Source: Mesorhizobium sp. M3A.F.Ca.ET.080.04.2.1
GTDB taxonomy: Bacteria; Pseudomonadota; Alphaproteobacteria; Rhizobiales; Rhizobiaceae
DNA length: 64,000 nt
Assembly (NCBI RefSeq): GCF_003952525.1
Contig: NZ_CP034451.1
Span: 4,688,501-4,752,500 of the forward strand
Direction: 5' to 3'
Part shown: piece after piece, positions 10,180-50,143 of the stretch
How positions within the stretch are numbered: the stretch's first letter is position 1
Layout of the letters: each line of letters opens with the position of its first letter
Translations under genes and position numbers: made by a program
The notes under the pieces: generated by a model
Seen by the model: the letters and a program-made list of their open reading frames with translations, nothing else
Told to the model about the DNA's origin: nothing
The model's database searches: none

Positions 10180-12543
10180 TTACGATCTTGGTCTTTCCTT
10201 CTTGGGATCATAATGGGCGAAGGGCACGATGCGGGCCGGCAGGCGCTTCTGGTGGCCGTCGAGCTTTCCAATCTCGACCTCGGTGCCGACTTCGGCGTGG
10301 GTCGCGTCGATACGGGCTAGCGCGATGTTCTTCTTCAGCACAGGCGAGCGCGTCGACGACGTGACGACGCCGATCTGGGCGCGGCCAATATGGATGCAGT
10401 CCCCGTGTCCGACGGCGACGTTCGAATCGATATCGAGGCCGACGAGCTTGTGCCGGGGATGCTCCTTGCGCCGAATAAGCGCGTCACGACCGATGAAGTC
10501 GTCCGTCTTGGTCTTGAGCGGAACGGTAAATCCGATCCCGGCTTCGAACGGATCGGTCTGATCGGAGAATTCGTAGTTCGCAAAGATAAGCCCCGCTTCG
10601 ATGCGCACCATGTCCAGTGCGGCCAGCCCCATGGACTTCAGTCCGTGCGGCTGGCCGGCCTCCCACACGGCGTCGAAAACCTTTTCTGCATCGCGCGGGT
10701 GGCACCAGACCTCATAGCCGAGTTCGCCGGTGTATCCGGTGCGCGACACCAAGATCGGAACGCCCTCCGCGTCGCCGATGCGGCCGATCGTGAAGCGGAA
10801 CCATTCGAGCTCGGTCAGCGCCGGCTGGTGAGGTGGTGTCCGGACGATATCCTTGAGGACATCGCGGCTCCGAGGCCCCTGGACGGCGATGTTGTGCAAC
10901 TGGTCGGTCGAAGAGCGGATCAATACTCTTAGGCCGAGCTTCTCAGCCTGCTCGCGCAGCCAGACGCCGGAATAATCGTCACCGCAGATCCAGCGGAAAT
11001 TGTCCTTGCCAAGCCGCAGCAGCGTGCCGTCGTCGATCATGCCGCCATGCTCGTAGCACATGGCGGTGTAGACCACTTGCCCGACTCCCAGCTTCCTGAC
11101 GTCGCGGGTGAGCGTGTACTGCATCAGGGTTTCAGAGTCCGGACCAGTCACCTCGAATTTGCGGAGCGCCGAGAGGTCCATCACGACCGCCTTTTCACGG
11201 CAGGCCCAATACTCCTCGATGGCGCCTTCGCTGGAAAATTCCTGGGGCAGCCAAAAACCCTTGTAGTCGACGAAATTGCGCGTGTGCTTCGAGAAGCTGG
11301 AATGGAAGGCTGTCTCACGGGTCATTTTAGGCTCGGCCTCCGGGGTGGTGCGTCGTGCTACCGCACGCTGAAATTTGTTCAGCCCGGAATAGGTCCGGAC
11401 ATGGATGTCAGTCGGATTCCAGCCATTGGCCGGAGTGGTGTCGTCTGGGCAGGCGGAGGACACACAGACGATATCGGTCAACGCCCGCAGCAGCACGTAA
11501 TCGCCCGGGCGTGACCAAGGCTCGTCGGAATACATGACGCCATGGGCATCGATGCCGGTATTGAAGAAGAAGTTGACCGCCATCCAGCCTGCACGGGACG
11601 TCACGCCGTGGGGAGCGAGCGCGTCGTTGAAGTTCTCGGAGCAGTTGATGTGACCCGGGTAGCCGATATCGTCATAGTATTTCGCATAGCAGGCCAGCGC
11701 AAAAGCGTCGTGCCGGCCACAGGTGTCCTGGACCACCTCGACCAGCGGCTCGAAGTCTTGATCGAAATATTTCGCGTGCAGGCCCGGCATCGGGTAGGCA
11801 TGGCCCATCAGCGAGCGGGTGGCGGTGACGTCGAGGGCGAGATCTCGGCCTTTGTCGAGCTTGCGTGCCGAGAAACACTGGAAGTCGGTACACTGGCGAC
11901 CGTCGACGTCGATGATCTGAATATAGTCGCCGGCTTTCACGAAATAGGCTTTGGCCGTGCTCGACCTTACCCTGAGATCAAGCACTGGCTCGGCGAGCGG
12001 ATCAGGCAGTTCAAATCTGCGGACCGAACGTATGGTAGAGCGCCGGACCAGGACTTCCAGCGGGGTCGTGGTGTCCTGGCCATCGACCGCCATGGGCGCC
12101 CCTGGCGCAGCCACCGCCAGCATGCCCTCGCGCCCGACGATGAAGCTCTGTTCCGCTCCGGCAGGAGTACCGCTGTCGAAAAACCGCACCGCCTCGGCGC
12201 GGCCAAGATCGATGTTGCGCTGCGCAAGGCCAAGCCGGAACTTCTGCAGGCTCTCGTCACCCTGGGCAAGCAGTGCCTTCAAGCCGGAGGCATCGCTGTT
12301 GGTGGGCGCACCGAGGATGCCGGGATCGGTCCGCCCCTGGGCGTCAAAGCTCACCAGCTCGCACGCCTGGCCGCCTTCGAGATTGCGGATCGTGACGCGG
12401 TCCCCTGCGTCGATTTCGATCAGTGCGGCGCCCGAGCCGGGGACTTGATAACGCTCCAGGCCGGGCGCGAGCAGCCCAGGCTGGAGGATCAGGCTGGCTT
12501 TCGGCGGGCCCATCGTCACGGCAGGATAGTCCGCAAGCGTCAT
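10180..12543 (-). CDS. tdm: Trimethylamine N-oxide demethylase/aldolase
   Basis: A 787-residue two-domain enzyme that splits TMAO into dimethylamine and formaldehyde. Residues about 1-400 form a DUF1989-type domain; residues about 410-787 form a GcvT-like tetrahydrofolate-binding domain that can capture the C1 unit. Cysteines 285, 301 and 365 have spacings of 16 and 64. As I recall, these equal the spacings of the three zinc-binding cysteines of Methylocella silvestris Tdm (263, 279, 343), offset by 22 residues. It is encoded downstream of tmm and a GlxA regulator on the same strand. Without the N-terminal half it would be read as a plain aminomethyltransferase, but the fusion and the tmm neighbour settle the call. 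Confidence 0.93.
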   Translation of the reverse strand: MTLADYPAVTMGPPKASLILQPGLLAPGLERYQVPGSGAALIEIDAGDRVTIRNLEGGQACELVSFDAQGRTDPGILGAPTNSDASGLKALLAQGDESLQKFRLGLAQRNIDLGRAEAVRFFDSGTPAGAEQSFIVGREGMLAVAAPGAPMAVDGQDTTTPLEVLVRRSTIRSVRRFELPDPLAEPVLDLRVRSSTAKAYFVKAGDYIQIIDVDGRQCTDFQCFSARKLDKGRDLALDVTATRSLMGHAYPMPGLHAKYFDQDFEPLVEVVQDTCGRHDAFALACYAKYYDDIGYPGHINCSENFNDALAPHGVTSRAGWMAVNFFFNTGIDAHGVMYSDEPWSRPGDYVLLRALTDIVCVSSACPDDTTPANGWNPTDIHVRTYSGLNKFQRAVARRTTPEAEPKMTRETAFHSSFSKHTRNFVDYKGFWLPQEFSSEGAIEEYWACREKAVVMDLSALRKFEVTGPDSETLMQYTLTRDVRKLGVGQVVYTAMCYEHGGMIDDGTLLRLGKDNFRWICGDDYSGVWLREQAEKLGLRVLIRSSTDQLHNIAVQGPRSRDVLKDIVRTPPHQPALTELEWFRFTIGRIGDAEGVPILVSRTGYTGELGYEVWCHPRDAEKVFDAVWEAGQPHGLKSMGLAALDMVRIEAGLIFANYEFSDQTDPFEAGIGFTVPLKTKTDDFIGRDALIRRKEHPRHKLVGLDIDSNVAVGHGDCIHIGRAQIGVVTSSTRSPVLKKNIALARIDATHAEVGTEVEIGKLDGHQKRLPARIVPFAHYDPKKERPRS

Positions 12544-12616
12544 TACCGCCTCCCATGGCCAGGTGCACGATCGACGAGCACCCCTGATTGCATCCCTGAA
12601 GCAGCCGCAACGAACC

Positions 12617-13681
12617 TCATCCGGCCATTGAAAATCTTCGTTGGGACGTCCCGCCGTGATCCACTCCCAGCGCCGGATTCATACGATGGCTGCGCCCGCT
12701 CGCGCGGGCTGCCAATCGTGTTTGATGCGGAGCGCATCCGTAGGCTTCGCGATAGACCTTGGAGAAGTGCGATGGCGAGATAAACCCACATGCCACCGCA
12801 ACTTCCACGACCGGCAGATTTGTGCTCACAAGAAGCAGGTGCCCGCGCTCCAGACGAAGCTCCAGGTAATATCGGTTGGGCGAGCGTCCCAGCTCCCTCT
12901 CGAAAAGTCTTTCGATCTGCCGGCGCGATATTCCGCTCAACGCCACGAGTTCGTCGACCGGCATCGGATCATCCAGGCTTGCCTCCATCAGGCCGATGAC
13001 CTTCATCACCGCCTTGTGGTTGAGCTTGACACGCGAATGAAGCGGCAGGCGTTGCCGGTCTCCGGCCGAGCGCATGCGGAAGGCGATAGCCTTTTCACAG
13101 ATGCGATTGACCACGATCGAACCATGGTCGCGCTCGACCAAGTGCAAGAACATGTCGAACGGCGCATCCCCACCCGAGCAGCTATGCAGGTCCCCGTCGT
13201 GTTCAAACGCCGTTTGAGTGGATTCTACGCCCGGAAACTGCTCGCAAAACAGCGGAAGCTGTTCCCAGTGGACTGCACAACGGCGCCCGTCCGCCAGTCC
13301 GGCCCGCGCAGCAACGACAGTGCCGCTGCCGATGCAAATCAGGGGAATGCGGCGCATGCGGCATTCCCTTAGCCACGCATCGAGTTGCCTGTCCGGGCGC
13401 GGGATCGAGCTGCCGCCGCAGATCACGGCGGCCGAGGTCAAGTTCGATTTCTGGGTTCTCTCCCGCTCATTTCTCAGGCTGGAGTCGATGCTGACAGTCA
13501 GCCCGCAGTTCGACATGACCGGTTGACCATCCTCCGATACGACCTGCCAGCCGTAGACGTTCCTGCCGACCGCGTCATTGGCCAACCGCAGTACTTCTAT
13601 CGCGCAGGAGAAAGCTTGAAGCGAAAAGCCAGGCAAAAGATAGAAACTAAACGATCTGTGCGCCGTGTGTGCAGTCAGCAT
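12617..13681 (-). CDS. GlxA/AraC-family regulator, tmm-tdm module
   Basis: A 354-residue regulator with an N-terminal DJ-1/PfpI-like domain (about 1-190) and a C-terminal AraC double helix-turn-helix (about 230-330; GISRRQIERLFERELGRSPNRYYLELRL then GFISPSHFSKVYREAYG). Family members such as GbdR sense quaternary-ammonium catabolites. The start at 13681 follows AGGAGGAAGCCTGG, an excellent ribosome site. It lies between tmm (143 bp upstream) and tdm (73 bp downstream) on the same strand, so it probably controls TMA/TMAO breakdown and may be cotranscribed with it. The ligand is unknown. Confidence 0.85.
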   Translation of the reverse strand: MLTAHTAHRSFSFYLLPGFSLQAFSCAIEVLRLANDAVGRNVYGWQVVSEDGQPVMSNCGLTVSIDSSLRNERERTQKSNLTSAAVICGGSSIPRPDRQLDAWLRECRMRRIPLICIGSGTVVAARAGLADGRRCAVHWEQLPLFCEQFPGVESTQTAFEHDGDLHSCSGGDAPFDMFLHLVERDHGSIVVNRICEKAIAFRMRSAGDRQRLPLHSRVKLNHKAVMKVIGLMEASLDDPMPVDELVALSGISRRQIERLFERELGRSPNRYYLELRLERGHLLLVSTNLPVVEVAVACGFISPSHFSKVYREAYGCAPHQTRLAARASGRSHRMNPALGVDHGGTSQRRFSMAG

Positions 13682-13751
13682 CCAGGCTTCCTCCTCATCT
13701 TTGCCACCCTCTACCGCCGAACCGTGGGAGTGGTTCTCGTTTCTCCTCTCC

Positions 13752-13803
13752 CCGGAACTATGCGCGAGCACGTCATGGCGTGACGATTCGAGGAGTTCCG
13801 GGA
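13752..13803. promoter_or_regulatory. Inverted repeat in tmm-glxA gap
   Basis: CCCGGAACT (13752-13760) faces AGTTCCGGG (13795-13803), a perfect 9-bp inverted repeat with a 34-nt loop, lying between the tmm stop and the GlxA-1 start. It could be an intercistronic hairpin or a regulator site. There is no T-run, so a simple terminator is less likely. Confidence 0.4.
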
Positions 13804-13824: not shown

Positions 13825-15165
13825 TCAGTTGCGCAGATAACTCTGCATCGTATCATCGAGCGCATCTTTCCACGGCGTATGATGCTTCGGGGCCATGGTA
13901 CCGGTCATGACCGATCGGTAGCTGTTGTCGCGGAACGCCATGATGTCCTTGATCTTGTGCTTCTTCCACTGGAAGAAAGCCTCGTCGGCGCCGTCGACAT
14001 CGAAACTTGGATAGTCGGTCTCGGCGATCAGTTCCTTGATATAGTTGCCTTGGTAGCGGATCGCGTCATAGCTGTCCTTCCCGGCATCCTCGGCCGCGAC
14101 CCGCTTCTCGACATCGGCGATCAGATCGTTCTTGGACGCAGGCAGGCTAATCCTGCCGAGGACGACGTCGCGCACCCACCAGGCCTGCGCATCGAACATG
14201 TTGAAGGTGTACCACTGATCCTGCATGCCGAGATAAAACAGCGCCGGGTTGTGGACGTAGACGACGCCCTTATAGAGATCGGCCGTGGCCAACCTGTTGG
14301 CGGTGCGCAGCCGCAACTCGTCCGCCATGAACGGGAAATGGTGCTTGTATCCGGTGCAGAGGATGATCGCATTGACGGTCGCGGTCGAGCCGTCCTTGAA
14401 GGTTGCGACATTGCCCTCGACCTTGGTCAGCAGAGGCACCTCCTTCCAGTTGGCCGGCCACTTGAAGCCCATGGCCTGCGTGCGATGGCTGACGGTGACC
14501 GACTTGCAACCATACTTCCAGCACTGGGAACCGATATCCTCGGCCGAGTAGCTGGTCCCGACGATCAGTATGTCCTGGCCGACAAATTCTCGTGCGTCGC
14601 GGAAGTCGTGTGCATGCAGGATGCGACCATTGAATGTGTCGAACCCGGGGAATTCGGGCACGTTGGGCGTTGAAAAGTGGCCCGACGCGACGATCACGTG
14701 GTCGAATTCTTCCGAGTAGGACCGGTCATTGGGAAGATCTTGCACAAGCACGGTGAACTTGCGGGTCCGCGCATCCCAGCTCACATACCTGACGACGCTG
14801 GAGAAGCGTATCCACGGACGCACGCCCGCCTTCTTCACGCGCCCTTCGATATAATCGAACAACACGGCCCGGGGCGGATAGGAAGCAATCTGTTTGCCGA
14901 AGTGCTCCTCGAAGGTATAGTCCGCGAATTCCAGCCCCTCCTTTGGGCCGTTGGACCAGAGATAGCGATACATCGAGCCATGCACCGGCTCGCCAAATTC
15001 GTCCAGGCCTGTGCGCCAGGTGTAGTTCCACAGCCCTCCCCAATTCTTCTGCTTTTCGAAGCAGACAATCTCCGGAATCTCCGTTTGCGGCGCTGCGGAC
15101 GCGAAGGCGCGCAACTGAGCCAAGCCGGACGGACCGGCACCAATGATTGCAATTCGCTTTCTCAT
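13825..15165 (-). CDS. tmm: Trimethylamine monooxygenase (flavin-containing)
   Basis: A 446-residue class B flavin monooxygenase that oxidises trimethylamine to TMAO with NADPH and O2. The FAD motif IGAGPSG is at residues 7-13. The FMO signature [11 protein letters not shown], the NADPH-binding GTSYSAED segment and the CTGY motif follow in the expected order. Length and sequence closely resemble bacterial Tmm (as in Methylocella). The ATG at 15165 is preceded by GGGAGAA; an ATG 15 bp upstream has no ribosome site. It is followed by a GlxA regulator and tdm, giving the first two steps of TMA breakdown on one strand. Two TGGT-N4-ACCA palindromes lie just upstream. Confidence 0.93.
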
Positions 15166-15180
15166 GCTAAATTCTCCCAT

Positions 15181-15224: not shown

Positions 15225-15343
15225 GTTAGGATCGAATTTCGGCCTTTGTCAACAAATATTCATTTAGGGAAAGTCGATTTGCACGTTCGCATCGGTTGCC
15301 GCAACCGGGATCCGGGTGGGGCCTGCGCCCGGAGAAGCGCCCA

Positions 15344-16657
15344 ATGAGCCCGGCCAGTTTCTCGCAACGGCTTGCCGTGAACGCACAAACCAAACGGCTG
15401 AGCGTCGGGGCGCATCAGACCGTCAAGGTAGGTTTTCTCGGGCCGCTCACGGGGCCAATTCGCTCATGGGGGCTACCAGGACTGAATGGCTGTCGCATCT
15501 GGGTGGACTGGATCAACCGCACCGGAGGAATGCTGATCGGGGGAGCCCGCCACAATGTCCAGCTGCTTGCCGAGGATTGTGGCTATGACCCTGAACGGGC
15601 GGCAGAAGGCGCCAGACGCCTGGTGCAGGACCAGGGCGTGGGGCTGCTGATGATGCTGGGTGGCGACACGTTCCGTCCAATCCAGGATTATCTGATGTCC
15701 CGGAAAGTTCTGACCTCGACGCTGCTGCCAAGCGATCTTTCGCCGGACACGCCGTATCTGATCGCCCCAAGCGAAATCCATCCACTCTACAACGTCACGG
15801 CGGTCGAGTGGCTTGCACGCAATCGCCCGGATCTGCGGCGCGTGGCGATGTGCAGCCAGACGGATGCGTTGGGGTTGCCCTCGCTTGCGACCTATCGGGC
15901 GGCCTTTGCCGCGGAGGGCATCGAGGCCGTGGGGGAGGTCCGCTATGCGCCGGAAGCGACAAATGCCGAGGAAATAGTCGGCGCGATGCTGACCCGCGAA
16001 CCAGACATCCTGTGTTGGTGCACGAGCTACGAGCCGATGGTTCACGCATTGACGGTGGCTGCTTTCCGAGCGGGATTCCGGGGGCAGATCATTTCCTGCA
16101 CCGCGGACAACTATCGTCGGCTGGCCGAGAGGACATCCGTCGAGTTCGTCGAGGGTTTCCTGTTCCAGTTTCCGGACTTCGACGATCCAGAGCTCCGCGA
16201 CAAAGCCTTTTTCTTCAATCGGCCGGCCGAATTCTTCGATGAGTACAACCGCCGCTTTCCAGACAGCTGGACAGCCGTTTCATGGGAATATGTGGCCACG
16301 CTCGACCTTTGGCATGCGGCGGTCGAAAAGGCTGGAACGGCAGCGCCGGTCTCGGTTCTCGCGGCAATGAAGCATGGCGGTCTCGGCGAGCACGCTTTTG
16401 GAATAGCCAAATGGTCGGGTTCGGACCTGTTCGGCAATGACAATGCCCTTATCGGTGATTGGCCGGTGGTGCGTATCACCGGCGGCCAGGCTCGAATTGT
16501 GGCTTTCGGGTCGATCCCGGACTGGCTGCGGCGTCACGGGGTCCGATTGCGGCACGAACTGCGCGCGCTTGGACTGATGTGGGATCAGCGTCATTCCATG
16601 CCGAGCGAGTTGCGGATTTCCGCGGGGCTCGCGATGGCCGACGCTCAATCTTCCTGA
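15344..16657 (+). CDS. Periplasmic-binding-fold ligand protein (AmiC/UrtA/LivK type), no signal peptide
   Basis: A 437-residue type I periplasmic-binding-fold protein. KVGFLGPLTGPIRSWGLPGLNG is followed by VQLLAEDCGYDPERAAEGARRLV, as in UrtA, FmdD and AmiC proteins that bind urea or amides. No hydrophobic signal peptide is visible: the N-terminus is polar for about 35 residues, and no transporter genes are adjacent. The ATG at 15344 follows GGAG; a TTG at 15296 adds no signal sequence. It is divergent from tmm and overlaps the convergent GntR gene by 13 bp. A cytosolic amine sensor, as AmiC is for amides, is the most attractive reading; an orphan transporter component is the alternative. Confidence 0.75.
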   Translation: MSPASFSQRLAVNAQTKRLSVGAHQTVKVGFLGPLTGPIRSWGLPGLNGCRIWVDWINRTGGMLIGGARHNVQLLAEDCGYDPERAAEGARRLVQDQGVGLLMMLGGDTFRPIQDYLMSRKVLTSTLLPSDLSPDTPYLIAPSEIHPLYNVTAVEWLARNRPDLRRVAMCSQTDALGLPSLATYRAAFAAEGIEAVGEVRYAPEATNAEEIVGAMLTREPDILCWCTSYEPMVHALTVAAFRAGFRGQIISCTADNYRRLAERTSVEFVEGFLFQFPDFDDPELRDKAFFFNRPAEFFDEYNRRFPDSWTAVSWEYVATLDLWHAAVEKAGTAAPVSVLAAMKHGGLGEHAFGIAKWSGSDLFGNDNALIGDWPVVRITGGQARIVAFGSIPDWLRRHGVRLRHELRALGLMWDQRHSMPSELRISAGLAMADAQSS

Positions 16658-17364
16658 AGGAGGAGCTTTTGTTCTTCGATCAAAAGCAGCTTGGCAAATT
16701 CGACCGCGCTCTCGATGTCGCGCGCAATGATGGCGTTGAGCAACGTATTGTAGCGTCGTTGATAGTCCTGGATCCGGCGAGGTGTCAGATGCCGCCGGTT
16801 GAGCGCGGCGCGAAAGCCTTGGCGACGCGCCTGGATCAACAGGTCATAGCAGGACGCAAGCAACGGGTTGCCCGCTCCGCGGGCTACCTGGCGGTGAAAC
16901 TCTTCCTCGAGCCGGGCAAACTGGGCCGCGTCGGTCTGAACCAGTTCCATCGCAGACAGAATCTCGCCGAGGCCTTCGATGGCTCGCGGCGACATGTTGA
17001 TGATGGCCAGCCGCATCATCTCGGGTTCTATGATTCCGCGCATGACGAGGAGGTCGAGCGGACTGCTCTCCGCAGCGACGCCTCCCGCGGCATCGTCCGG
17101 ACCTGTCTGCCCCGTGACGTAGCTGCCGCTTCCGGCCCGGCGGCGGATAAAGCCGTGCGTTTCGAGTATGTCGAGCGCTTCGCGAACCGTGTTTCGGGCG
17201 ACGCCAAGTTCGCTGGCCAGCGTTCGCTCCGAAGGCAGTCGTTCGTCGGCCGCGTATTGCTGGGAGCGTATGCGCGCCAACAGCGTATCCACCACCACCC
17301 GCACCGTCGCGCCGATCGAGTGATCCGCAATCAGAGCCAATGCCGCATCATGGTTTGGTGGCAT
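16645..17364 (-). CDS. GntR-family regulator, FadR/FCD subfamily
   Basis: A 239-residue regulator. An N-terminal winged helix (about 25-90: YAADERLPSERTLASELGVARNTVREALDILETHGFIRRRAGSGSYV) is followed by an alpha-helical FCD ligand domain whose histidines (EEEFHRQVARGAGN and later) are typical metal/ligand positions. AGGAAGG precedes the ATG at 17364. It is divergent from dmmD across 368 bp, the usual position for the local regulator of the dmm operon. FCD-type ligands are small carboxylates; the effector here is unknown. Confidence 0.88.
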   Translation of the reverse strand: MPPNHDAALALIADHSIGATVRVVVDTLLARIRSQQYAADERLPSERTLASELGVARNTVREALDILETHGFIRRRAGSGSYVTGQTGPDDAAGGVAAESSPLDLLVMRGIIEPEMMRLAIINMSPRAIEGLGEILSAMELVQTDAAQFARLEEEFHRQVARGAGNPLLASCYDLLIQARRQGFRAALNRRHLTPRRIQDYQRRYNTLLNAIIARDIESAVEFAKLLLIEEQKLLLQED

Positions 17365-17732: not shown

Positions 17733-18866
17733 ATGACCAATTCCTGGAGATTTTCCACGCTCGGCGACCGCCATCGCGCGCTTGGTTCGAAGCTTGAAGA
17801 CTGGAGCGGCATGGGCACCGCCTGGCAATATTCGGGCGATCCGGAGCGCGAGTACCTGGCGATCCGCACCAAGGCCGGCCTCATGGACGTTTCCGGCTTG
17901 AAGAAGGTGCATTTGAACGGCCCTGCGGCCACCCACATCATCGACCGCGCCACTACCCGCAACGCCGAGAAGATCATGCCCGGCCGTTCGGTCTATGCGA
18001 CCATGCTGAACGACGCCGGCAAGTTCATCGACGACTGCGTGATCTACCGCATGGGGCCGAACAGCTGGATGGTGGTGCACGGCTCGGGCGGAGCCCATGA
18101 ACAGCTGACCATGGCGGCCACGGGCCGCGACGTTGCCATCCGTTTCGACGACAATCTGCACGATCTGTCGCTGCAAGGGCCGCTCGCCGTCGACTACCTG
18201 CAGAAGCATGTGGAAGGCATCCGGAACCTGAACTACTTCAGCCATATGCACACCTCGCTTTTCGGTCTGCCCGTGACGATCTCGCGTACTGGCTACACCG
18301 GCGAGCGCGGCTATGAGATTTTCTGCCGCGGCCAGGACGCTCCTGCGATCTGGGACCGGATCCTGGAGGAGGGAGCGGGCATGGGCATCATCCCTTGCCG
18401 GTTCACGACGCTCGATCTGCTGAGGGCCGAAAGCTATCTGCTGTTCTTCCCGTACGACAATTCGGAGAAGTATCCCTTCGAGAACGAAGGTCCCGGCGAC
18501 ACGCTGTGGGAACTCGGGCTCGACTTCACCGTCTCGCCCGGCAAGGTGGGCTTCCGCGGCGCCGAGGAACATTACCGCCTGAAGGGCAAGGAGCGCTTCA
18601 AGATCTATGGCGTCAAGCTCGAAGGCAAGACGCCGGCCGAGGAGGGTGCGCCGTTGCTCAAGGACGGCAAAAAGGTCGGCGTGGTGACGATCGGCATGTA
18701 TTCCCGCCTCAACGAGCACAACATCGGCATTGCCCGCATGCCCGTGGAATGCGCGGTCGACGGCGTGAAGATGACGGTTCAGAATTCGACCGGCGAAATT
18801 CCCTGCGTCGCTCATTCGATGCCATTCTTCGATGCGGACAAGAAGCGTCGCACCGCGAAGGGATGA
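17733..18866 (+). CDS. dmmD: DmmD, GcvT-like tetrahydrofolate aminomethyltransferase of dimethylamine breakdown
   Basis: A 377-residue protein of the glycine-cleavage T-protein family. The N-terminal folate-binding domain includes GLMDVSGLKKVHLNGP and LQGPLAVDYLQK; the segment SRTGYTGERGYEIFC is the conserved GcvT signature. In dmmDABC clusters this subunit is thought to pass the methyl carbon released from dimethylamine to tetrahydrofolate. The ATG follows GGGGATAACGAG. It is the first gene of a tight plus-strand operon with dmmA, dmmB and dmmC. Without that context it would be called a generic aminomethyltransferase. Confidence 0.85.
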   Translation: MTNSWRFSTLGDRHRALGSKLEDWSGMGTAWQYSGDPEREYLAIRTKAGLMDVSGLKKVHLNGPAATHIIDRATTRNAEKIMPGRSVYATMLNDAGKFIDDCVIYRMGPNSWMVVHGSGGAHEQLTMAATGRDVAIRFDDNLHDLSLQGPLAVDYLQKHVEGIRNLNYFSHMHTSLFGLPVTISRTGYTGERGYEIFCRGQDAPAIWDRILEEGAGMGIIPCRFTTLDLLRAESYLLFFPYDNSEKYPFENEGPGDTLWELGLDFTVSPGKVGFRGAEEHYRLKGKERFKIYGVKLEGKTPAEEGAPLLKDGKKVGVVTIGMYSRLNEHNIGIARMPVECAVDGVKMTVQNSTGEIPCVAHSMPFFDADKKRRTAKG

Positions 18867-18910
18867 GTTGCGGTGAGAGCCAACCAAAACGGAGCCGAGG
18901 GTCAAAGTCA

Positions 18911-19510
18911 GTGTTAGAAGGCTCGATTCCAAGCCGCCCCGTCTATGGCGTGCTGGAGATACGGCCGGGGCGGCTGCATCTGATGGTCGCCGACGCCGAA
19001 GGCGCCGAGGCGATCCTCGATTTGGCCGCCTCCGCGCCGGCGGATTTCTTCGCCGCGGCTCACATCATTTATCTGCCCAAGAAATCCGGCGACCGGTTCG
19101 TCGCCAGGTTACAGCAACTTGTCCCTGCCCAACTCTATGTCGGGCCGAGCTACGATGCCGCGCTTCCGCGGCTGAGGCGGGTCCTGGCGGGCGCGCATAT
19201 GGGCCTGCAGGTCTACCTGGCGGGAACCGAAGGACTGATGGGGCAGGCGATGTTGGAGGTCACGCAGGCGGGCGTCCCACATTCCGCGATCCAGACGGAG
19301 CACCGCGGCTCGACCGTGCGCCGCGTGCAGTGCGTGCATTGCAAGGGTATCACCGAAGAGGTGACGCACGATCCTTTCCAATGCGCCCATTGCGGGCTGC
19401 ATCTGTTCGTGCGGGATCACTACTCACGCCGCATTGCGGCCTTCCAGGGCGTGCGCGTCGATGCGGAAGATCCCGGCAACATTCCCGAATCGGTGGAGCG
19501 GTTCAGATGA
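18911..19510 (+). CDS. dmmA: Dimethylamine monooxygenase subunit DmmA
   Basis: A small protein of about 199 residues. Its C-terminus carries a rubredoxin/zinc-ribbon-like pair, CVHCKG and CAHCG, separated by about 14 residues, matching the DmmA family that accompanies the haem-containing DmmC. The GTG at 18911 follows GAGGG at good spacing; an ATG at 18863 that overlaps the dmmD stop is the alternative and would add 16 residues of unremarkable sequence. The stop overlaps the dmmB start by 4 bp, implying translational coupling. It probably assists electron transfer or assembly of the monooxygenase. Confidence 0.82.
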   Translation: MLEGSIPSRPVYGVLEIRPGRLHLMVADAEGAEAILDLAASAPADFFAAAHIIYLPKKSGDRFVARLQQLVPAQLYVGPSYDAALPRLRRVLAGAHMGLQVYLAGTEGLMGQAMLEVTQAGVPHSAIQTEHRGSTVRRVQCVHCKGITEEVTHDPFQCAHCGLHLFVRDHYSRRIAAFQGVRVDAEDPGNIPESVERFR

Positions 19511-20472
19511 GTGCAGGTGCCGCAAAAATACCCGTGACAGTCGCCGAGGTGACACCGGTCAACGAACTTGTCACCCGATTCAAGTTCGTGCGCCGTGATG
19601 GCGGCCCGATGCCTACCTTCTCGGGCGGCGCCCATACGGTCGTGGAAATGAACGACCGCGATCGCGTGCGCCGCAACCCCTATTCGATCATGAGCGACCC
19701 GGGCGACCGGGGGGCCTATTCGATCTCGATTCGCCGCGACGACAATGGGAGAGGCGGTTCGTTGTTCATGCACCGGCAGGTGAGGCCGGGAATGGAGATG
19801 GTCATCTCCAACCCGGTCAATCTGTTCGCGCTGGATTTGCGGGCGCGAAAGCACCTGTTGCTCGCCGGAGGCATCGGCATCACCCCGTTCCTGGCCCAGA
19901 TCAAACAACTCAGCGCCATGAACGGCAACTTCGAACTCCACTATTCCGTGCGCAGCGCGTCGCTCGCGTCCTATGCGGACGAGCTGGTGGCCAACCATCG
20001 ATCCCGCGTTCATCTTTACCATGACGAGCGGGGCGAGCAGATCGACCTGCCGGCATTGCTCGACGGCCAGCCGCTCGGCACCCACGTCTATGTCTGCGGA
20101 CCCAAAGGCATGATCGCCTGGGTGCGCAACACCGCGACGGCGCTCGGATGGCCGCGCGAGGCGGTGCATCACGAAGAATTCCTTGCGCCTGCCTCAGGCA
20201 AGCCGTTCGAAGTCATGCTGGCACGGTCGAACAAGCTGATCCGGGTTGGCGAGCATCAAAGCCTGCTGGAGGCGATCGAGGCAGCCGGCGTCGAGGCACC
20301 GTATCTATGCCGCGGCGGAGCGTGCGGCCAGTGCGAGACGGATGTCCTCGAGCATGAGGGAACGTTCCTGCACAAGGACCATTGGCTGACGCCGACGCAA
20401 TGTGCCAGCGGCACCAAGATCATGCCTTGCGTGTCGCGCTTCGAAGGCAGGACGCTGGTGTTGGATCGATAG
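19507..20472 (+). CDS. dmmB: Dimethylamine monooxygenase reductase DmmB (FMN/2Fe-2S)
   Basis: A 321-residue phthalate-dioxygenase-reductase-type protein. The flavin-binding RRNPYSIMS is at about residues 56-64; the nucleotide-binding domain shows LLAGGIGITPFLAQ and VYVCGPKGM; a C-terminal plant-type 2Fe-2S domain has CRGGACGQC and a distal cysteine. It passes electrons from NAD(P)H through flavin and iron-sulphur to the oxygenase. The ATG at 19507 overlaps the dmmA stop. dmmC starts 16 bp after the stop. The assignment to dimethylamine rests on the operon partners. Confidence 0.9.
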   Translation: MSAGAAKIPVTVAEVTPVNELVTRFKFVRRDGGPMPTFSGGAHTVVEMNDRDRVRRNPYSIMSDPGDRGAYSISIRRDDNGRGGSLFMHRQVRPGMEMVISNPVNLFALDLRARKHLLLAGGIGITPFLAQIKQLSAMNGNFELHYSVRSASLASYADELVANHRSRVHLYHDERGEQIDLPALLDGQPLGTHVYVCGPKGMIAWVRNTATALGWPREAVHHEEFLAPASGKPFEVMLARSNKLIRVGEHQSLLEAIEAAGVEAPYLCRGGACGQCETDVLEHEGTFLHKDHWLTPTQCASGTKIMPCVSRFEGRTLVLDR

Positions 20473-20488
20473 CGAGGAGGACGCTGCG

Positions 20489-21529
20489 ATGACTGTTATC
20501 TTCAAGGAAGAAACCTTCCACGACGACTTCACCTTCCGCAACTCGCCGGAGGCGGTCAAGCGCTTCCCTTTCCCGTTTCCCGAGGACAGCTACATGTACT
20601 CGGTGAACCTGGAGCCGCATAAGTCCTACCGCCCGGGCAGCGTCTACGAGCGGACGTTCGACGTCGACGAGCATTACGTGTCCGAGATGCGCGACCGCGC
20701 TCGCGTCCTTGCCGAAGACCCGTTGCGCTGCCAGTCGCTGCCGCACATGACCCTGGCCGGCTGGGATCTGCTCGAGCTGATCATGACCTCGAAGGCAGAA
20801 GAGTATCCGGAGCTTTTCGAGCTGCACCGCGACGGCGCCAAATGGCACTGGATCAACCGTCCGCTCGGCATCGAGCAGAAGTTCACCTTCCTCGACGAGA
20901 CCACTTTGCCGTATGGCCCGATGGAGTACATCACACGGCAGACCCAGGGCGATTTTGCGGTGCTCGACCAACGCGACGAGAACCTGTGGATGGACGCCGG
21001 CATGGTGACGACACAGGCCGATTGGAGCCTGGATTTCGACATCGGCATGAACTTCTTCGAGTGGCACGCCCCAGTGCCGAAAGCGCACGAGATGGGCATC
21101 TTCCAGCGCGCCTTGAAGTTTCTCCTGAACGTGCAGCAAGGCTCGCCGGCGCGCCGTCTGAACTGGACGATGACCGTCAATCCCCTGCTCGATACAAGCC
21201 CCGAAAACTACCACAAATGGGGCGTGATGAAGAAAGACCTGACGCTCGAGAATATGGGGCAAATGATGCATTTGCGCGTCGAGCTTCAGACCTTCTTCCG
21301 TCTCCCTCGCTCGAACGCCCTCGTGTTTCCGATCCGCTGCTACCTCATCAAGCTCGACGAACTGGTGACGGTGCCGAAATGGGCGAGGCGTTTCCATCGC
21401 GTCATCCGCGACCTGCCGGCCGAGCTTGCGACCTACAAGGGCTTTGTCACCAACCGGCCCAAGATCGTGGAATGGCTGTCGAAATATGACGACGGTGCGC
21501 CGACGTCGCCAGGTATCTGGGCCGACTGA
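20489..21529 (+). CDS. dmmC: Dimethylamine monooxygenase haem subunit DmmC (DUF3445, HODM)
   Basis: A 346-residue DUF3445 protein, now recognised as the haem-dependent oxidative N-demethylase family. Recognisable family segments include FPFPFPEDSYMYSVNLEPH, PLRCQSLPHMTLAGWDLLELIM and LPRSNALVFPIRCYLIKLDEL. It is the catalytic subunit that turns dimethylamine into methylamine and formaldehyde with O2 and electrons from DmmB. GAGGAGGACGCTGCG precedes the ATG. It ends the four-gene dmm operon and is followed 31 bp later by a second GlxA-type regulator on the same strand. Confidence 0.92.
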   Translation: MTVIFKEETFHDDFTFRNSPEAVKRFPFPFPEDSYMYSVNLEPHKSYRPGSVYERTFDVDEHYVSEMRDRARVLAEDPLRCQSLPHMTLAGWDLLELIMTSKAEEYPELFELHRDGAKWHWINRPLGIEQKFTFLDETTLPYGPMEYITRQTQGDFAVLDQRDENLWMDAGMVTTQADWSLDFDIGMNFFEWHAPVPKAHEMGIFQRALKFLLNVQQGSPARRLNWTMTVNPLLDTSPENYHKWGVMKKDLTLENMGQMMHLRVELQTFFRLPRSNALVFPIRCYLIKLDELVTVPKWARRFHRVIRDLPAELATYKGFVTNRPKIVEWLSKYDDGAPTSPGIWAD

Positions 21530-21560
21530 GCAAGCCCTGCACACAGGGCAGGGGACAGAC

Positions 21561-22592
21561 GTGGGAGTGGCTGCCTTGCTGCAACGAAGGCCGCGTGACG
21601 AGCAAAGGCATCTCGGCTTCCTGATCTTTCCAGGCTTCCCCATGGCGTGCCTGACCTCGGCCATTGAGCCGTTGCGCGCGGCAAACGAAATCGTCGCACG
21701 AGACGTTTTCTCGTGGACCGTGGTTGGTGAGACGGCAAGCCGCGTCGTTTCCAGCGCCGCCGTCGGGTTCGACCCCGATATCGGGCTGCAGGACCTGCCT
21801 GGCGTCGATCAGCTCTATTTCCTCTCAGGGCCGAACGGGCGTTTCCAGTCGGCTCGCACCGGCAACGCCGCGATACGCAGGCTCGCCCGTCATGGGACGG
21901 GGCTCGGCGCCTTCAGCGGCGGCATTTTTCCACTTGCGCGCACCGGTCTGATGGCTGACCACAAATGTGCCGTGCATTGGTGCTACGAGGCGGCGTTCAA
22001 GGCCGAGTTTCCAGACGTCCAGGCCAGCGAAAAAGTCATCTGCGTAGACCGGCAACGGCTCACAGCGGCAGGCGCGACGGCCGTGTTCGACCTCATGCTG
22101 CAGCTGATCCAGGATCGGCTGGGCGCTGAGGTCATGACCGAAGTCGCGTGCTGGTTCCAGCATCCTTTCGTGCGCGGGGAGGAGGCGGAACAGAGGACCC
22201 CGGCGCTGCGAAGCGACCGCACCGAGGATATGCTGCCCCGGCCCGTTGCCAAGGCGATACGACTCTTTGCCGAGCATGTGGAGGATCCGATCCAGATAGC
22301 GCGCGTCGCCAAGGCCGTGGATCTGTCCACCCGGCAGCTGGATCGCTCCTTCAGGCGCTCCACCGGACAGAGCCCCCTCAAATACTACCGTCTGCTGCGG
22401 ATGAAGAAAGCGCGCCAGATAGCGCTTTATTCCAACGATTCGATCACCGATATCGCGCTGGCCGTCGGCTATGCGAGCACCACGCCCCTGGTCCGCCACT
22501 ATGTCCAGACTTTTGGCGTGACGCCGCAGGAGGATCGCAAGGCGATCAACAGATTCCGCGTGCGCGGCAACACGCCGCTTCCGGCCGTCTAG
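21561..22592 (+). CDS. GlxA/AraC-family regulator, dmm/mgd module
   Basis: A 343-residue regulator with an N-terminal DJ-1/PfpI-like domain (FLIFPGFPMACLTSAIEPLRAANEI at about 20-44) and a C-terminal AraC domain (VAKAVDLSTRQLDRSFRRSTGQSPLKYYRLLRM, then AVGYASTTPLVRHYVQTFG). I chose the GTG at 21561, which gives the normal family N-terminus, although no strong ribosome site is visible; the longer reading frame runs back into dmmC. It lies 31 bp after dmmC and is probably cotranscribed with the dmm genes, and it faces the mgdABCD operon tail-to-tail. AraC-type direct repeats in the mgdA-sga promoter make that region a candidate target. Confidence 0.85.
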   Translation: MGVAALLQRRPRDEQRHLGFLIFPGFPMACLTSAIEPLRAANEIVARDVFSWTVVGETASRVVSSAAVGFDPDIGLQDLPGVDQLYFLSGPNGRFQSARTGNAAIRRLARHGTGLGAFSGGIFPLARTGLMADHKCAVHWCYEAAFKAEFPDVQASEKVICVDRQRLTAAGATAVFDLMLQLIQDRLGAEVMTEVACWFQHPFVRGEEAEQRTPALRSDRTEDMLPRPVAKAIRLFAEHVEDPIQIARVAKAVDLSTRQLDRSFRRSTGQSPLKYYRLLRMKKARQIALYSNDSITDIALAVGYASTTPLVRHYVQTFGVTPQEDRKAINRFRVRGNTPLPAV

Positions 22593-26503: not shown

Positions 26504-26515
26504 CTCTGCCAGCCC

Positions 26516-29254: not shown

Positions 29255-29264
29255 GGGACGAGCC

Positions 29265-30239: not shown

Positions 30240-30257
30240 GATTCCCAGGAGGACAAG

Positions 30258-31442: not shown

Positions 31443-31455
31443 GGGAGGTCGAGAA

Positions 31456-32605: not shown

Positions 32606-32628
32606 CTGTTTACTGTGGGTAAAAACAG
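32606..32628. promoter_or_regulatory. Palindrome upstream of the XRE-cupin gene
   Basis: TTTAC-TGTGG-GTAAA (32609-32623) nested within CTGTTT...AAACAG (32606-32628), ending 23 bp before the chosen start codon at 32652. Position and symmetry fit an autoregulatory operator. Confidence 0.4.
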
Positions 32629-32651
32629 TGGCGAACCGAATAGGCGGAGCT

Positions 32652-33698: not shown

Positions 33699-33768
33699 AC
33701 CAGTTGAGTTCCTGCTGTGAAGCTGCTACGTCTTTCGCATCAGGCTGCAACCGTCGCGAGGTGATGTG

Positions 33769-34665: not shown

Positions 34666-34670
34666 GCATC

Positions 34671-35408: not shown

Positions 35409-35423
35409 GAGGGACCCATCAAA

Positions 35424-36752: not shown

Positions 36753-36836
36753 GGACAGCCAGCCGTCCCAAGAGAACGAAAACGTCAACGAGGCGCCAGA
36801 GAAAGAAATCGTCTGGCGCCGCACAGGGGAATCGCA

Positions 36837-38177
36837 ATGAACAAGATGGTCGATACGAATGTAGACGCCGGGATGAGCGATCTGCGGGAATTCGCTGCGG
36901 CACGGGGCGTCAAGTATTTCATGATCTCCTACACCGACCTGTTCGGTGGGCAGCGCGCCAAGCTGGTGCCGGCGCAGGCGATCGCCGACATGCAGAAGGA
37001 CGGTGCCGGCTTTGCCGGCTTCGCCACCTGGCTCGACCTGACGCCGGCGCATCCCGACATGCTGGCGGTGCCGGATGCGTCCTCGGTCATTCAGCTACCG
37101 TGGAAGCCGGACGTTGCATGGCTGGCTTCCGACTGCCTCATGGAAGGCAAGAGCGTCGCCCAGGCGCCGCGCAACACGCTGAAGCGGCTGGTCGCCGAGG
37201 CTGCGGAACTTGGGATGTCGGTCAAGACCGGCGTCGAGCCGGAATTCTTCCTTGTCACCCCGGATGGCAAGCAGATTTCAGACGAATACGATACGGCGTC
37301 AAAATCCTGCTACGACCAGCAGGCGGTCATGCGCCGCTACGACGTCATCGCCGAGATCTGCGATGCCATGCTGTCGCTCGGCTGGGGCCCGTATCAGAAC
37401 GACCACGAGGACGCCAACGGCCAGTTCGAGATGAACTGGGCCTTCGACAACGTGCTGGCGACGGCCGACAAGCATTCCTTCTTCAAGTTCATGGTGCGCT
37501 CGATCGCCGAGAAACATGGCCTGCGCGCGACCTTCATGCCTAAGCCCTTCCAGGGGCTGACCGGCAATGGCTGCCATGCCCATATTTCTGTTTGGGATCT
37601 GGCAGGTCAGTCCAACGCGTTCGCCGACAAAAGCATGCCCCTTGGGCTGTCCGAACAAGGCAAGCACTTCCTTGGCGGCATCATGAAGCACGCTTCGGCG
37701 CTTGCCGCGATCACCAATCCGACGGTCAATTCCTACAAGCGCATCAACGCGCCGCGCACGATCTCGGGCGCGACCTGGGCGCCGAACACGGTGACCTGGA
37801 CCGGCAACAACCGCACCCACATGGTGCGCGTGCCCGGCCCCGGCCGCTTCGAGCTGCGCCTGCCGGACGGCGCCGCCAACCCCTATCTGCTGCAGGCGGT
37901 GATCATCGCCGCCGGCCTCGACGGCATCCGCTCCAAGGCCGATCCGGGGCCGCGCAGCGATGTCGACATGTACAAGGAAGGTCACACCATCAAGCACGGC
38001 GCCAAGTTGCCTCTTAATCTGCTGGATGCTCTGCGCGCCTATGACAAGGACAAATCGTTGAAGGCAGCAATGGGTGAAGAGTTCTCATCCGCCTATCTGA
38101 AGCTCAAGCAACAGGAATGGAACTCCTTCGTATCGCACTTCACCCAATGGGAGCGCGACAACACTCTGGACGTGTAA
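36837..38177 (+). CDS. gmaS: Gamma-glutamylmethylamide synthetase (GlnT/type III-like glutamine synthetase family)
   Basis: A 446-residue glutamine-synthetase-fold ligase that joins methylamine to glutamate using ATP. KTGVEPEFFLV and NGCHAHISVWD contain metal and glutamate ligands; NRTHMVRVPGPGRFELRLPDGAANPYL is the ATP/phosphate region. The length and position behind mgsABC fit GmaS; rhizobial GlnT, which also sits beside glxABCD, is the close alternative. AGGGGAATCGCA precedes the ATG. The segment about 37740-37980 has clearly higher G/C at third positions than the gene's ends, suggesting a mosaic origin. Confidence 0.85.
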   Translation: MNKMVDTNVDAGMSDLREFAAARGVKYFMISYTDLFGGQRAKLVPAQAIADMQKDGAGFAGFATWLDLTPAHPDMLAVPDASSVIQLPWKPDVAWLASDCLMEGKSVAQAPRNTLKRLVAEAAELGMSVKTGVEPEFFLVTPDGKQISDEYDTASKSCYDQQAVMRRYDVIAEICDAMLSLGWGPYQNDHEDANGQFEMNWAFDNVLATADKHSFFKFMVRSIAEKHGLRATFMPKPFQGLTGNGCHAHISVWDLAGQSNAFADKSMPLGLSEQGKHFLGGIMKHASALAAITNPTVNSYKRINAPRTISGATWAPNTVTWTGNNRTHMVRVPGPGRFELRLPDGAANPYLLQAVIIAAGLDGIRSKADPGPRSDVDMYKEGHTIKHGAKLPLNLLDALRAYDKDKSLKAAMGEEFSSAYLKLKQQEWNSFVSHFTQWERDNTLDV

Positions 38178-42222: not shown

Positions 42223-43932
42223 TCAGAGAACAAAGAACCAGTTGGCGATGAGCACCACGACCACACCCGCCACCAGCGTCAGGTAGGGCAGGATGCCAGC
42301 TTTCCTGGTCGCGAGATCGGCGGAATTCATGCCGAGATCGTCCAGCATGTGGTCCGGGAACTTGCCACCGTCCTGGATGTAGTGTCGGAAGCAGAACACC
42401 GGGATGATCAGCGCTGCGGTAATCAGGCCAGCCCACAATGCCATCGGGTTCCACACCTTGGCCCCGGCACCCATGAACATGGCGTTGACGAAGGCGAAGA
42501 CCGCCCCGGTCGCCAGCAGCCAGGTCGGCGCCTTCCAGGGCCGATCGATATGGCCGTTGTCGATGCGGTGGATCCAGCCGGAGTTGAGGTTGAGGAAGTT
42601 GAAGATGATGTAGCCGCAGTTCGACACGGCCAGGATGAAGAAGAAGCTCGTCGCGTCGGCCGAAGCGATTGCCAGCACGATCAGGTTGAAGCAGAGGTCG
42701 GTCCACATTGCACGCGTCGGCGCGCCGTGTTCGTTGACGTGGCTGAGATAGCGCGGCAGCCAGCCATCGACCGAACCCTGGTAGAGGGTGCGCGAAGACC
42801 CGGCCATCGCCGTCATGATGCAGAGCACCAGTGCCAGGATCATCAGCATCACCAGCAAGGCGTGAACCAACTGGCCGCCGCCAACCATGCCAGCCAGCGC
42901 GTCTGCGACGCCCGAGCCATCGACGATCGGCGTCGCCAGCATGCCGTTCAGGCCCAGCACGCCCTGGAAGGTGAAGGGCACCAGGATGAACAGCAGCATG
43001 CACAGCAGGCCGGAATAGAAGATGGCCTTGAAGGTGTCGGTGCCAGGGTTCTTGAATTCGGACGTGTAGCAGACCGCGGTCTCGAAGCCGTAGGTCGACC
43101 AGGCCGCGATAAACATGCCGCCGAGCGCCAGCGTCCATCCCGCGATGTTCCAGGTGCCGGGTTCGGGCGCGTAGGCGGCCGCGAGCGGCACCAGCGGCGA
43201 GAAGTTGTCATAGTTGATCTGTCCGGTGAAGAACGGGACGACACCGACGATCAGCATCGGGACGATCACCAACAGACCAATGTATTTCTGCACGCTGGCG
43301 GTCCCCAGAATGCCGCGATGCTGGATCGCGAAGATCATCAGCATCAGGACCGCGCCGATGAAGAAGGTAGCGTTGAGCGAAAAGCTGACAGGCCCGAGCA
43401 CGTGACTGTAGAGCGTCCAGTTGCGGACGGCAGGCGTTGCGGCGGCCGTCACTGCCGTAATGGCGTCGGCGGCACTCGTGCCGGCGTGGGCGCCGATGTA
43501 GGCCAGGACCTCCGGAGAGTTCTCGGTGAAGATCGGCACCGGCGCCAGCGAGTTGAGGATATACGCTGCAGCGATGGAGCAGCCGAGCGACAGCACCGGC
43601 GACCACGCGAACCAGTTGCACCAGACCGACAACGGCGCGATCAACTTCGAATAACGCAGCCACGCCGTCGCGCCATAGACCGACGCGCCGCCGGATTTGT
43701 TCGGAAACAGACCGGCGATTTCAGCATAGGTGAACGACTGGATGAAACCCATGATCATGGACACGGTCCAGATCAGGAAGGCAAGCTTGCCGGTCGTCCC
43801 GGCAATGCCGCCAATCGAGAACAGGACGAGGGCGGGGACGCCGCTTGCCACCCAGAAGGCGCCTCGCCAGTCAATGGTTCTATGCAGTTGCCCCGCGGCT
43901 CCTTCAGTGTAGGTGTCCGTTAAAGCGCTCAT
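42223..43932 (-). CDS. APC-family amino acid/amine permease
   Basis: A 569-residue membrane transporter of the amino acid-polyamine-organocation superfamily, with about 12 hydrophobic segments; the first reads FWVASGVPALVLFSIGGIAGTTG. GGASVYGATAW corresponds to the conserved TM2-TM3 region. APC permeases are found beside gmaS/mgs genes and may import amines or gamma-glutamyl compounds, or export surplus amino acid. The ATG follows GGGGATT. It is divergent from ppc across 342 bp and ends in a strong terminator. Substrate is unknown. Confidence 0.8.
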   Translation of the reverse strand: MSALTDTYTEGAAGQLHRTIDWRGAFWVASGVPALVLFSIGGIAGTTGKLAFLIWTVSMIMGFIQSFTYAEIAGLFPNKSGGASVYGATAWLRYSKLIAPLSVWCNWFAWSPVLSLGCSIAAAYILNSLAPVPIFTENSPEVLAYIGAHAGTSAADAITAVTAAATPAVRNWTLYSHVLGPVSFSLNATFFIGAVLMLMIFAIQHRGILGTASVQKYIGLLVIVPMLIVGVVPFFTGQINYDNFSPLVPLAAAYAPEPGTWNIAGWTLALGGMFIAAWSTYGFETAVCYTSEFKNPGTDTFKAIFYSGLLCMLLFILVPFTFQGVLGLNGMLATPIVDGSGVADALAGMVGGGQLVHALLVMLMILALVLCIMTAMAGSSRTLYQGSVDGWLPRYLSHVNEHGAPTRAMWTDLCFNLIVLAIASADATSFFFILAVSNCGYIIFNFLNLNSGWIHRIDNGHIDRPWKAPTWLLATGAVFAFVNAMFMGAGAKVWNPMALWAGLITAALIIPVFCFRHYIQDGGKFPDHMLDDLGMNSADLATRKAGILPYLTLVAGVVVVLIANWFFVL

Positions 43933-47034: not shown

Positions 47035-47063
47035 CGCCGGGCGACGCGCAGAGGGAGGAACAC

Positions 47064-48368: not shown

Positions 48369-48374
48369 AGAACC

Positions 48375-49170: not shown

Positions 49171-49222
49171 CATTCTGCCGACGCTCCCGCAATCAATATG
49201 GATCGTGCGCTCGCTCGCGCCT

Positions 49223-50143
49223 TCACTCCGCCGCGAGCTTGTCCGCCACGCCATAGGTCGCCTGGTAGAGCGCGCGCTGGCGGCTGAGCGCGACCATGGT
49301 GTTGCGCAGCAGGATCGCCACCGTGATCGGGCCGACGCCGCCCGGCACCGGCGTGATCCATGAGGCGACGTGCCTGACGCTGTCGGTGTCGACGTCGCCG
49401 ACGATGCGGCTTTCGCCGTCCGGTCCGGTCTCCGCATTGATGCCGATGTCGATCACGGCAGCACCCGGCTTGACCATGTCGGCCTTGATCAGCCGCGGCT
49501 TCCCGACGGCGACGAACAGCGCATCGGCGCGCCGCGCATGCGCCGCCACCGAGCGCGTCATGTGATGGCACACCGTCACGGTGGCGCCCTCGCTCATCAG
49601 CAGGAAGGCGATCGGCTTGCCGACGATCTCGGAATGGCCGACGACCACTACCTCGAGCCCCTTGAGGTCGAGACCCGTCTCTTTCAGCAGTTGGACGGAA
49701 GCAGCTGCCGTGCACGGGGCGAGATCGAGTTGGTTGTAGACGATGTTGCCGATCGAAGCCGGATGCATGCCCTCGACGTCCTTGAGCGGATGCACCGCCG
49801 CCTGCAGCGTCTTGATCGGGATATGCGCCGGGACCGGCCGCTGGATGATGATGCCGGTGACGCGCGGATCGGCGTTGAGCCCGTGGATCGCCGCTTCCAG
49901 CTCGCCTGCTGTGATATCGGCGGCGAAGCGCCGCTCCTCGAAGCCGATGCCGGCAAGCTCGGCCTTGGCGCGCTGGTTGCGGACATAGACCTCGACCGCG
50001 GCGGTGTCGCCGACGGTGATCGACACCAGCTTCGGCGCAAAGCCTTCGGCGGTGGCGATCGCCGCTTCGTCGCGCACGGAAGCGATGATGCGATTTGCGA
50101 CCGGGCCACCCTTGAGATAGCGGCTGTCGTCAGACCGGGACAT
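49223..50143 (-). CDS. Second FolD-like methylenetetrahydrofolate dehydrogenase, altered active site
   Basis: A 306-residue FolD-family protein. The NADP fold (VVVVGHSEIVGKPIAFLL) and [11 protein letters not shown] are intact. Relative to Escherichia coli FolD, Tyr50 is kept (Tyr53) and Gln98 is kept (Gln101), but the catalytic Lys54 is Gln57 (YVRNQRAK) and Asp121 is Glu124 (KDVEG). In the human enzyme, changing the equivalent lysine to Gln abolishes cyclohydrolase but spares dehydrogenase activity, as I recall. This may thus be a monofunctional dehydrogenase for the methylotrophic route. AGGAGGTCTTAGCC precedes the ATG at 50143. Confidence 0.85.
   Translation of the reverse strand: MSRSDDSRYLKGGPVANRIIASVRDEAAIATAEGFAPKLVSITVGDTAAVEVYVRNQRAKAELAGIGFEERRFAADITAGELEAAIHGLNADPRVTGIIIQRPVPAHIPIKTLQAAVHPLKDVEGMHPASIGNIVYNQLDLAPCTAAASVQLLKETGLDLKGLEVVVVGHSEIVGKPIAFLLMSEGATVTVCHHMTRSVAAHARRADALFVAVGKPRLIKADMVKPGAAVIDIGINAETGPDGESRIVGDVDTDSVRHVASWITPVPGGVGPITVAILLRNTMVALSRQRALYQATYGVADKLAAE

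Follow-up and report, generated by a model that had tools for sequence, protein, structure and literature searches.

Compact methylotrophy islands, combining genes for C1-substrate oxidation, methylene-tetrahydrofolate (methylene-THF) oxidation and C1 assimilation, are described from Paracoccus sp. N5 and Roseobacter in the available portions of Dziewit et al. (PMC4543880). According to the accessible part of a second report (PMC8235418), Paracoccus aminovorans carries N-methylglutamate (NMG) and serine-cycle genes in a 40-kb island on plasmid pAMV1, and 17 of 33 genes are plasmid-borne in Aminobacter aminovorans KCTC 2477. As far as the excerpted text of PMC4653772 extends, Mesorhizobium sp. 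1M-11 grows on trimethylamine (TMA) and an M. loti with gmaS shows no methylotrophic growth. Here we analyse a window of 64 kb from the one-contig genome (6.17 Mb) of the soil bacterium Mesorhizobium sp. M3A.F.Ca.ET.080.04.2.1 (contig NZ_CP034451.1), in which a TMA-to-serine-cycle block with open frames extends from ~10.18 to 50.2 kb. It represents, within Mesorhizobium, the type of methylotrophy island already published for Paracoccus, Roseobacter and Aminobacter, and linkage of these genes is thus not new. The new observations in this strain are, as read from sequence comparison, a probable gene conversion of the sga-mcl-mtkAB genes and a deletion of hydroxypyruvate reductase (hpr) and glycerate kinase (gck), neither of which was found reported among the titles and abstract openings that searches of open-licence PMC papers listed (for one search, 15 of 61 papers).

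Protein families were assigned with NCBIfam and Pfam profile scans, with scores quoted as bits/cut-off; Mgd gamma, Mgd delta, MgsB, Ppc (on NCBIfam) and the second FolD score below curated cut-offs, their names resting on gene order, Pfam or relatives. All of the genes named in the preliminary description of the window, Tmm, Tdm, DmmDABC, GmaS, MgsABC, MgdABCD, FolD, Fhs, GlyA, Sga, Ppc, MtkAB and Mcl, are present as judged by profile scans, PDB matches and open frames, and to these we add TmoP, a second FolD, a globin and a second sga-mcl-mtkAB copy elsewhere in the genome. The block holds the demethylation genes for TMA, trimethylamine N-oxide (TMAO) and dimethylamine (DMA) (Tmm, Tdm, DmmDABC and TmoP), a complete NMG pathway (GmaS, MgsABC and MgdABCD) and the serine-cycle genes glyA, sga, ppc, mtkAB and mcl. 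No counterpart of hpr or gck, both found in the Aminobacter and P. aminovorans islands, occurs in the block, which is therefore called a variant of the methylotrophy island; the two genes may not define the kind, since P. aminophilus has its genes spread across replicons.

Like the window, Aminobacter sp. MSH1 (plasmid pUSP1) and A. niigataensis DSM 7050 carry sga-mcl-mtkAB, an XRE regulator gene, mgsABC, gmaS, mgd, ppc and glyA in one row, and where matched the A. niigataensis proteins (locus L049) are 57-92% identical to those of the window (delta subunit, 47%). Unlike the window, the Aminobacter islands contain hpr and gck between mtkB and the XRE gene and are plasmid-borne in MSH1, and neither Tmm nor Tdm nor Dmm was seen in those parts of them that were read. 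In P. aminovorans JCM7685, where 41 kb of plasmid II (presumably pAMV1 itself) were read, 16 of the 20 proteins compared match the window, the best matches being 33-80% identical (DmmA, DmmB and DmmC at 51, 55 and 75%, Mgd subunits at 34-80%), whereas the aminotransferase encoded there barely resembles the window Sga (26% over 149 positions). This stretch further differs in that hpr and gck are present, in being plasmid-borne and in having no mgs/gmaS, Tmm or Tdm in the part read. Dmm, Mgd, FolD, an XRE regulator, GlyA, Ppc, MtkAB and Mcl are shared between the window and the Paracoccus and Roseobacter islands, insofar as these are covered by the available text of PMC4543880 and PMC8235418. 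The published description of Mesorhizobium sp. 1M-11, in its accessible part (PMC4653772), resembles the window in Tmm, the NMG pathway, a predicted serine cycle, FolD and no tetrahydromethanopterin (H4MPT) route, but its authors also list a methylamine dehydrogenase.

The sga-mcl-mtkAB core of the block has a near-identical counterpart ~0.92 Mb away, at 5642.0-5646.3 kb of the same contig (G000:C1; G000 denotes this genome, other G-labels same-genus relatives and L-labels loci), where Mcl (5.644 Mb) is 100% identical, and the block is thus not the sole source of these four enzymes. Window positions 28063-32300 agree with the second locus at 99.4% over 4239 positions (BLASTN) and, within the core from 28169 to 32171, a single mismatch is observed in 4003 bases, whereas identity between the copies falls to 77% over the final 184 bases of mtkB and the flanks differ too. 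The second locus is of the type usual in the genus, with LuxR upstream and an mtkB tail that agrees with the G010 chromosomal copy at 95%. Core identity within a genome is 100% in G000 and 98% in both G010 and G083, as against 92-94% between these three genomes, and the island and chromosomal copies of each are paired in the tree with 100/100 support. The approximately unbiased (AU) test rejects a clade of the three island copies (p-AU 1e-60), of the three chromosomal copies (2e-32) and of the island copies from G000 and G083 (8e-5), and the own-genome copy is the closest in these three among six two-copy genomes compared. The junction upstream of sga is 87% identical between G000 and G083 and 62% identical to the chromosomal copy of G000; being common to G000 and G083, it indicates that the island operon predates their split. 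Gene conversion appears to fit best a near-identical core bounded by a diverged mtkB tail and flanks.

The preliminary description noted that hydroxypyruvate reductase and glycerate kinase were missing from the block, an absence which is borne out and for which alignment with G083 supplies a cause. Both genes follow mtkB in Aminobacter and in G083, the nearest island compared, whose contig C14 runs from the mtkB end through hpr, gck and XRE to mgsABC as in Aminobacter. At the corresponding junction the window retains 22 bp in place of the 2170 bp that hold hpr and gck in G083, with both sides still aligning. As judged from this alignment, the two genes are deleted from the island in this strain and the two enzyme gaps in the block are due to that deletion. 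Hpr is encoded past mtkB in G010, G085, G004, G007, G021, G027, G050, G005, L049, P. aminovorans, G018, G083 and G088, these proteins being 57-98% identical to Hpr of MSH1, and gck was not seen beside it in G085, G004, G050 and G005. Among the loci read past mtkB, Hpr is missing from the more distant copy of G073 (L032) and from the operon on the chromosome in G000, G021 and G002.

Elsewhere in the genome the best Hpr relative is 44% identical and belongs to the glyoxylate-reductase group, and a glycerate 2-kinase-like gene at 2.996 Mb is 34% identical to Aminobacter Gck. The GhrA-type gene at 6.9 kb, which the preliminary description mentioned beside the missing hydroxypyruvate reductase, does not qualify as that of the island, since it shares 28% identity with the island Hpr of Aminobacter over 75% of the gene, is GhrA-like by PDB matches and is located beyond the island edge, as homology with G083 ends at Tdm; it could nevertheless act as a substitute. 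The suggested check of the remaining genome finds isocitrate lyase, a frame of 741 aa matching malate synthase, and the glycerate 2-kinase. No crotonyl-CoA reductase match reaches cut-off in the genome (TIGR01751, best 88 bits vs 379), and an ethylmalonyl-CoA cycle is rejected on that ground. No match to the H4MPT cyclohydrolase (MCH, PF02289) is found in the genome by a search that recovers three archaeal control genomes, these genome-wide negatives resting on a one-contig assembly from which plasmids may be missing. The only phosphoenolpyruvate carboxylase match in the genome is the island Ppc. Taken together, the tested markers would point to a folate-only serine cycle with glyoxylate regenerated by isocitrate lyase.

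The relatives were surveyed in 89 same-genus genomes, with stretches fetched from 14, and in the 80 named loci that match GmaS best, viewed with up to 10 kb per side and with some contigs ending sooner. Syntenic blocks, which it had been proposed to seek in Aminobacter and Mesorhizobium, occur in both, NMG and serine-cycle genes standing together in seven of these 14 relatives (G083, on two contigs, G010, G018, G085, G004, G050 and G005). Serine genes without mgs/gmaS alongside are observed in the stretches read from G007, G021, G027 and G088, and G002, G055 and G073 likewise have no mgs/gmaS alongside. Mcl and Hpr are close by coordinates in G054 and G053, with Tdm on the same contig in G054. 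Of the 80 GmaS loci, one (L049 of A. niigataensis) has Mcl, MtkA and MtkB together, and two (L081 and L116) have just Mcl, in a more distant form. Mcl of at least 86% identity is detected in 65 of the 89 relatives, as two copies in five and as one close copy in 60, and an Hpr match at E<=1e-95 in 24 of the 89, 23 of which are among the 65; 42 of the 65 therefore have Mcl without such a match. The G088 contigs start inside mtkB with two differing ends (80% and 96%; L025, L156 and L157) and its Mcl is found on another contig, of 3.2 kb, a pattern suggesting that this genome too might hold two near-identical copies. The earlier view of the block as one TMA-to-serine-cycle unit is upheld insofar as synteny extends to these seven relatives, to Aminobacter and in part to P. 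aminovorans, and gives way where the Hpr/Gck gap reflects a deletion and the core is duplicated outside the block.

Combined, these observations make it probable that the block represents a chromosomal methylotrophy island whose hpr and gck were lost by deletion and whose sga-mcl-mtkAB core would have been homogenised with the genus-typical chromosomal operon through gene conversion. With the order of enzymes taken from established pathways, Tmm, Tdm and Dmm would strip methyl groups from TMA, TMAO and DMA, and the resulting methylamine would pass through gamma-glutamylmethylamide and N-methylglutamate to methylene-THF. Methylene-THF is the branch point between oxidation by FolD and Fhs and entry into GlyA. 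Its carbon would accordingly take one of two routes, oxidation through FolD and Fhs or addition to glycine by GlyA, the latter followed by Sga, Ppc, MtkAB and Mcl. With the island hpr and gck lost, glycerate would have to come from other enzymes of the genome if the cycle closes. Growth of the strain on methylated amines may be expected.

Several points weigh against this explanation. The tract has a soft 5' edge, as the first 105 bases of sga (28064-28168) show six mismatches to the own chromosomal copy (94% identity) and agree with the island copy of G083 at 86%. Identity of the mtkB tail is 75-79% to island types and 75-77% to chromosomal types; the tail is thus no nearer to the one than to the other, and so indicates old age but not island type. 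No comparable homogenisation is observed in three of the six two-copy genomes: G007 and G021 have island and chromosomal copies of 84% identity, and for the pair in G073 the value is 86%. The groups submitted to the AU test were picked after identities were seen, and G083, in which mtkB was not found whole, contributes 1776 core bases. Sga matches both a serine-glyoxylate aminotransferase structure (PDB 6pk1) and, below cut-off, the BhcA (aspartate-glyoxylate) model (590 bits, cut-off 650), and its amino donor could be serine or aspartate. Finally, the best named relative by GmaS, M. loti UFLA 01-765 (97%; the majority of the best 28 loci are from Mesorhizobium), is represented by a 3.7-kb contig only.

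The alternative that survives best, and which we hold to be a substantial though minority possibility, is that the island now provides the strain with nitrogen and energy from methylated amines rather than with assimilated carbon, the serine-cycle genes functioning in glyoxylate metabolism or being in the course of loss. The deletion of hpr and gck, the distance of the best remaining Hpr relative, the 42 Mcl-bearing relatives without a close Hpr match and the non-methylotrophic M. loti with gmaS are all as this alternative would predict. Conversely, the frames are open and 19 island genes compared between G000 and G083 (dS 0.19-0.64) give ratios of nonsynonymous to synonymous divergence (dN/dS) of 0.04-0.21, values which average the entire time since the split; moreover, the glyoxylate-reductase-like gene, the GhrA-type gene and the glycerate 2-kinase are available and the one Ppc of the genome sits in the island. 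A role in nitrogen and energy supply is compatible with gene conversion and does not exclude it.

More speculatively, the Mesorhizobium sga-mcl-mtkAB genes might form a portable module, able to work without a dedicated hydroxypyruvate reductase and kept behind two upstream regions, one for methylated amines and one for central metabolism, by repeated gene conversion. The strain would then run a cut-down serine cycle leading from methylated amines to serine, glycine, acetyl-CoA and glyoxylate, and its C3 branch would either be lost or depend on general reductases. The proposed gene conversion with the chromosomal operon suggests that a portable methylotrophy island may join native metabolism by exchanging sequence with an operon of its host. 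The deletion suggests that island genes can be dropped, perhaps since the host has substitutes. The distribution also raises the question of the role of sga-mcl-mtkAB in the 42 Mcl-bearing genomes without a close Hpr.

Plain recent duplication, in which the chromosomal operon was copied once into the island, or back, without conversion of an older copy, is unlikely. It would account directly for the single mismatch in the core, for the one close copy in 60 of the 65 relatives with close Mcl and for the first bases of sga being nearer the own chromosomal copy than the G083 island copy. It does not, however, account for the diverged mtkB end between these same copies or for the upstream junction common to G083 and, as G010 and G083 are equally close within the genome, separate copyings at similar sites would be needed. 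That the identity is an assembly or polishing artefact is very improbable, for although a 4-kb near-exact repeat is a known assembly risk, flanks and mtkB tail differ between copies on the same contig, the equally single-contig G010 gives 98% and not 100%, and the draft genome G083 has two contigs with a common end point within mcl, which is what a genuine repeat would produce.

Table 1. Features of the window, with the profile or structural match on which each name is based
Feature	Position	Strand	Basis or remark
Tdm, TMAO demethylase	10180..12543	-	NF053776, 1271/1100 bits; PDB 9q59
GbdR-like AraC-family regulator	12617..13771	-	NF052371, 292 bits, below cut-off 480
Tmm, trimethylamine monooxygenase	13825..15180	-	NF058570, 821/675 bits
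Periplasmic-binding-protein-type protein	15296..16657	+	PF13458
GntR-family regulator	16645..17364	-	97% aa identity in G083
DmmDABC, dimethylamine monooxygenase	17733..21529	+	Order D-A-B-C
DmmD, GcvT-like	17733-18866	+	Named by position and resemblance
DmmA	about 18900-19510	+	PF22290 and PF22289
DmmB	about 19507-20472	+	Profile scans
DmmC	about 20489-21529	+	PF11927
Second GbdR-like AraC-family regulator	21426..22592	+	NF052371, 225 bits, below cut-off
MgdABCD, N-methylglutamate dehydrogenase	22700..27766	-	TIGR01375/01372/01374/01373
Mgd gamma	22700-23272	-	Sarcosine-oxidase-type, below cut-off
Mgd alpha	23265-about 26210	-	1342/1164 bits
Mgd delta	26216-26503	-	Sarcosine-oxidase-type, below cut-off
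Mgd beta	26516-27766	-	700/529 bits
sga	28064-29254	+	PDB 6pk1, E 6e-133
Putative gene-conversion tract	28169..32171		Second copy, tree and AU tests
mcl	29265-30239	+	PDB 5ugr malyl-CoA lyase, E 2e-123; below NCBIfam cut-offs
mtkA	30258-31442	+	730/604 bits
mtkB	31456-32355	+	Scored as succinate-CoA ligase alpha, 439/336 bits
Deletion junction (hpr, gck)	32469..32490		Alignment with G083
XRE/cupin (PuuR-like) regulator	32628..33365	+	PF01381 and PF07883
MgsA, MgsB, MgsC (N-methylglutamate synthase), then GmaS	33766..38177	+	MgsA, MgsC by Pfam; MgsB PF01493
GmaS	36837-38177	+	TIGR03105, 666/470 bits
Fhs	38751-40430	-	937/652 bits
FolD	40478-41377	-	485/396 bits
TmoP, TMAO permease	42223..43932	-	NF053774, 900/690 bits
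Ppc	44275-47034	+	NCBIfam 741, below 815; PF00311 over cut-off
GlyA	about 47064-48368	+	633/335 bits
LuxR-type response regulator	48375-49097	+	Profile scans
Second FolD	49223-50194	-	Below curated cut-off
Bacterial-type globin	50294-50812	+	Pfam scan; right island edge

The left edge of the island is placed at the end of Tdm. The binding-protein-like gene and the GntR gene adjoin Tmm here and likewise in L121, L122 and L123, and no ABC permease partner for the binding-protein-like gene was seen within 10-50 kb.

The globin at the right edge has relatives beside Tdm in G010, L116 and L121, and others that occur near Fhs in G085 and G004, and may thus regularly accompany islands of this kind. 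A tRNA-Ser gene lies just beyond the globin, at 50864. Integration of the island at this gene is not supported, the tRNA 3' end having no second copy in 92.5 kb (the window and 28.5 kb to its left), where its sole other BLAST match comprises 19 bases at 95%. Further to the right, between 52683 and 63958, a BMP-type ABC transporter is encoded together with nucleoside-breakdown genes of the pyrimidine phosphorylase and adenosine deaminase types.

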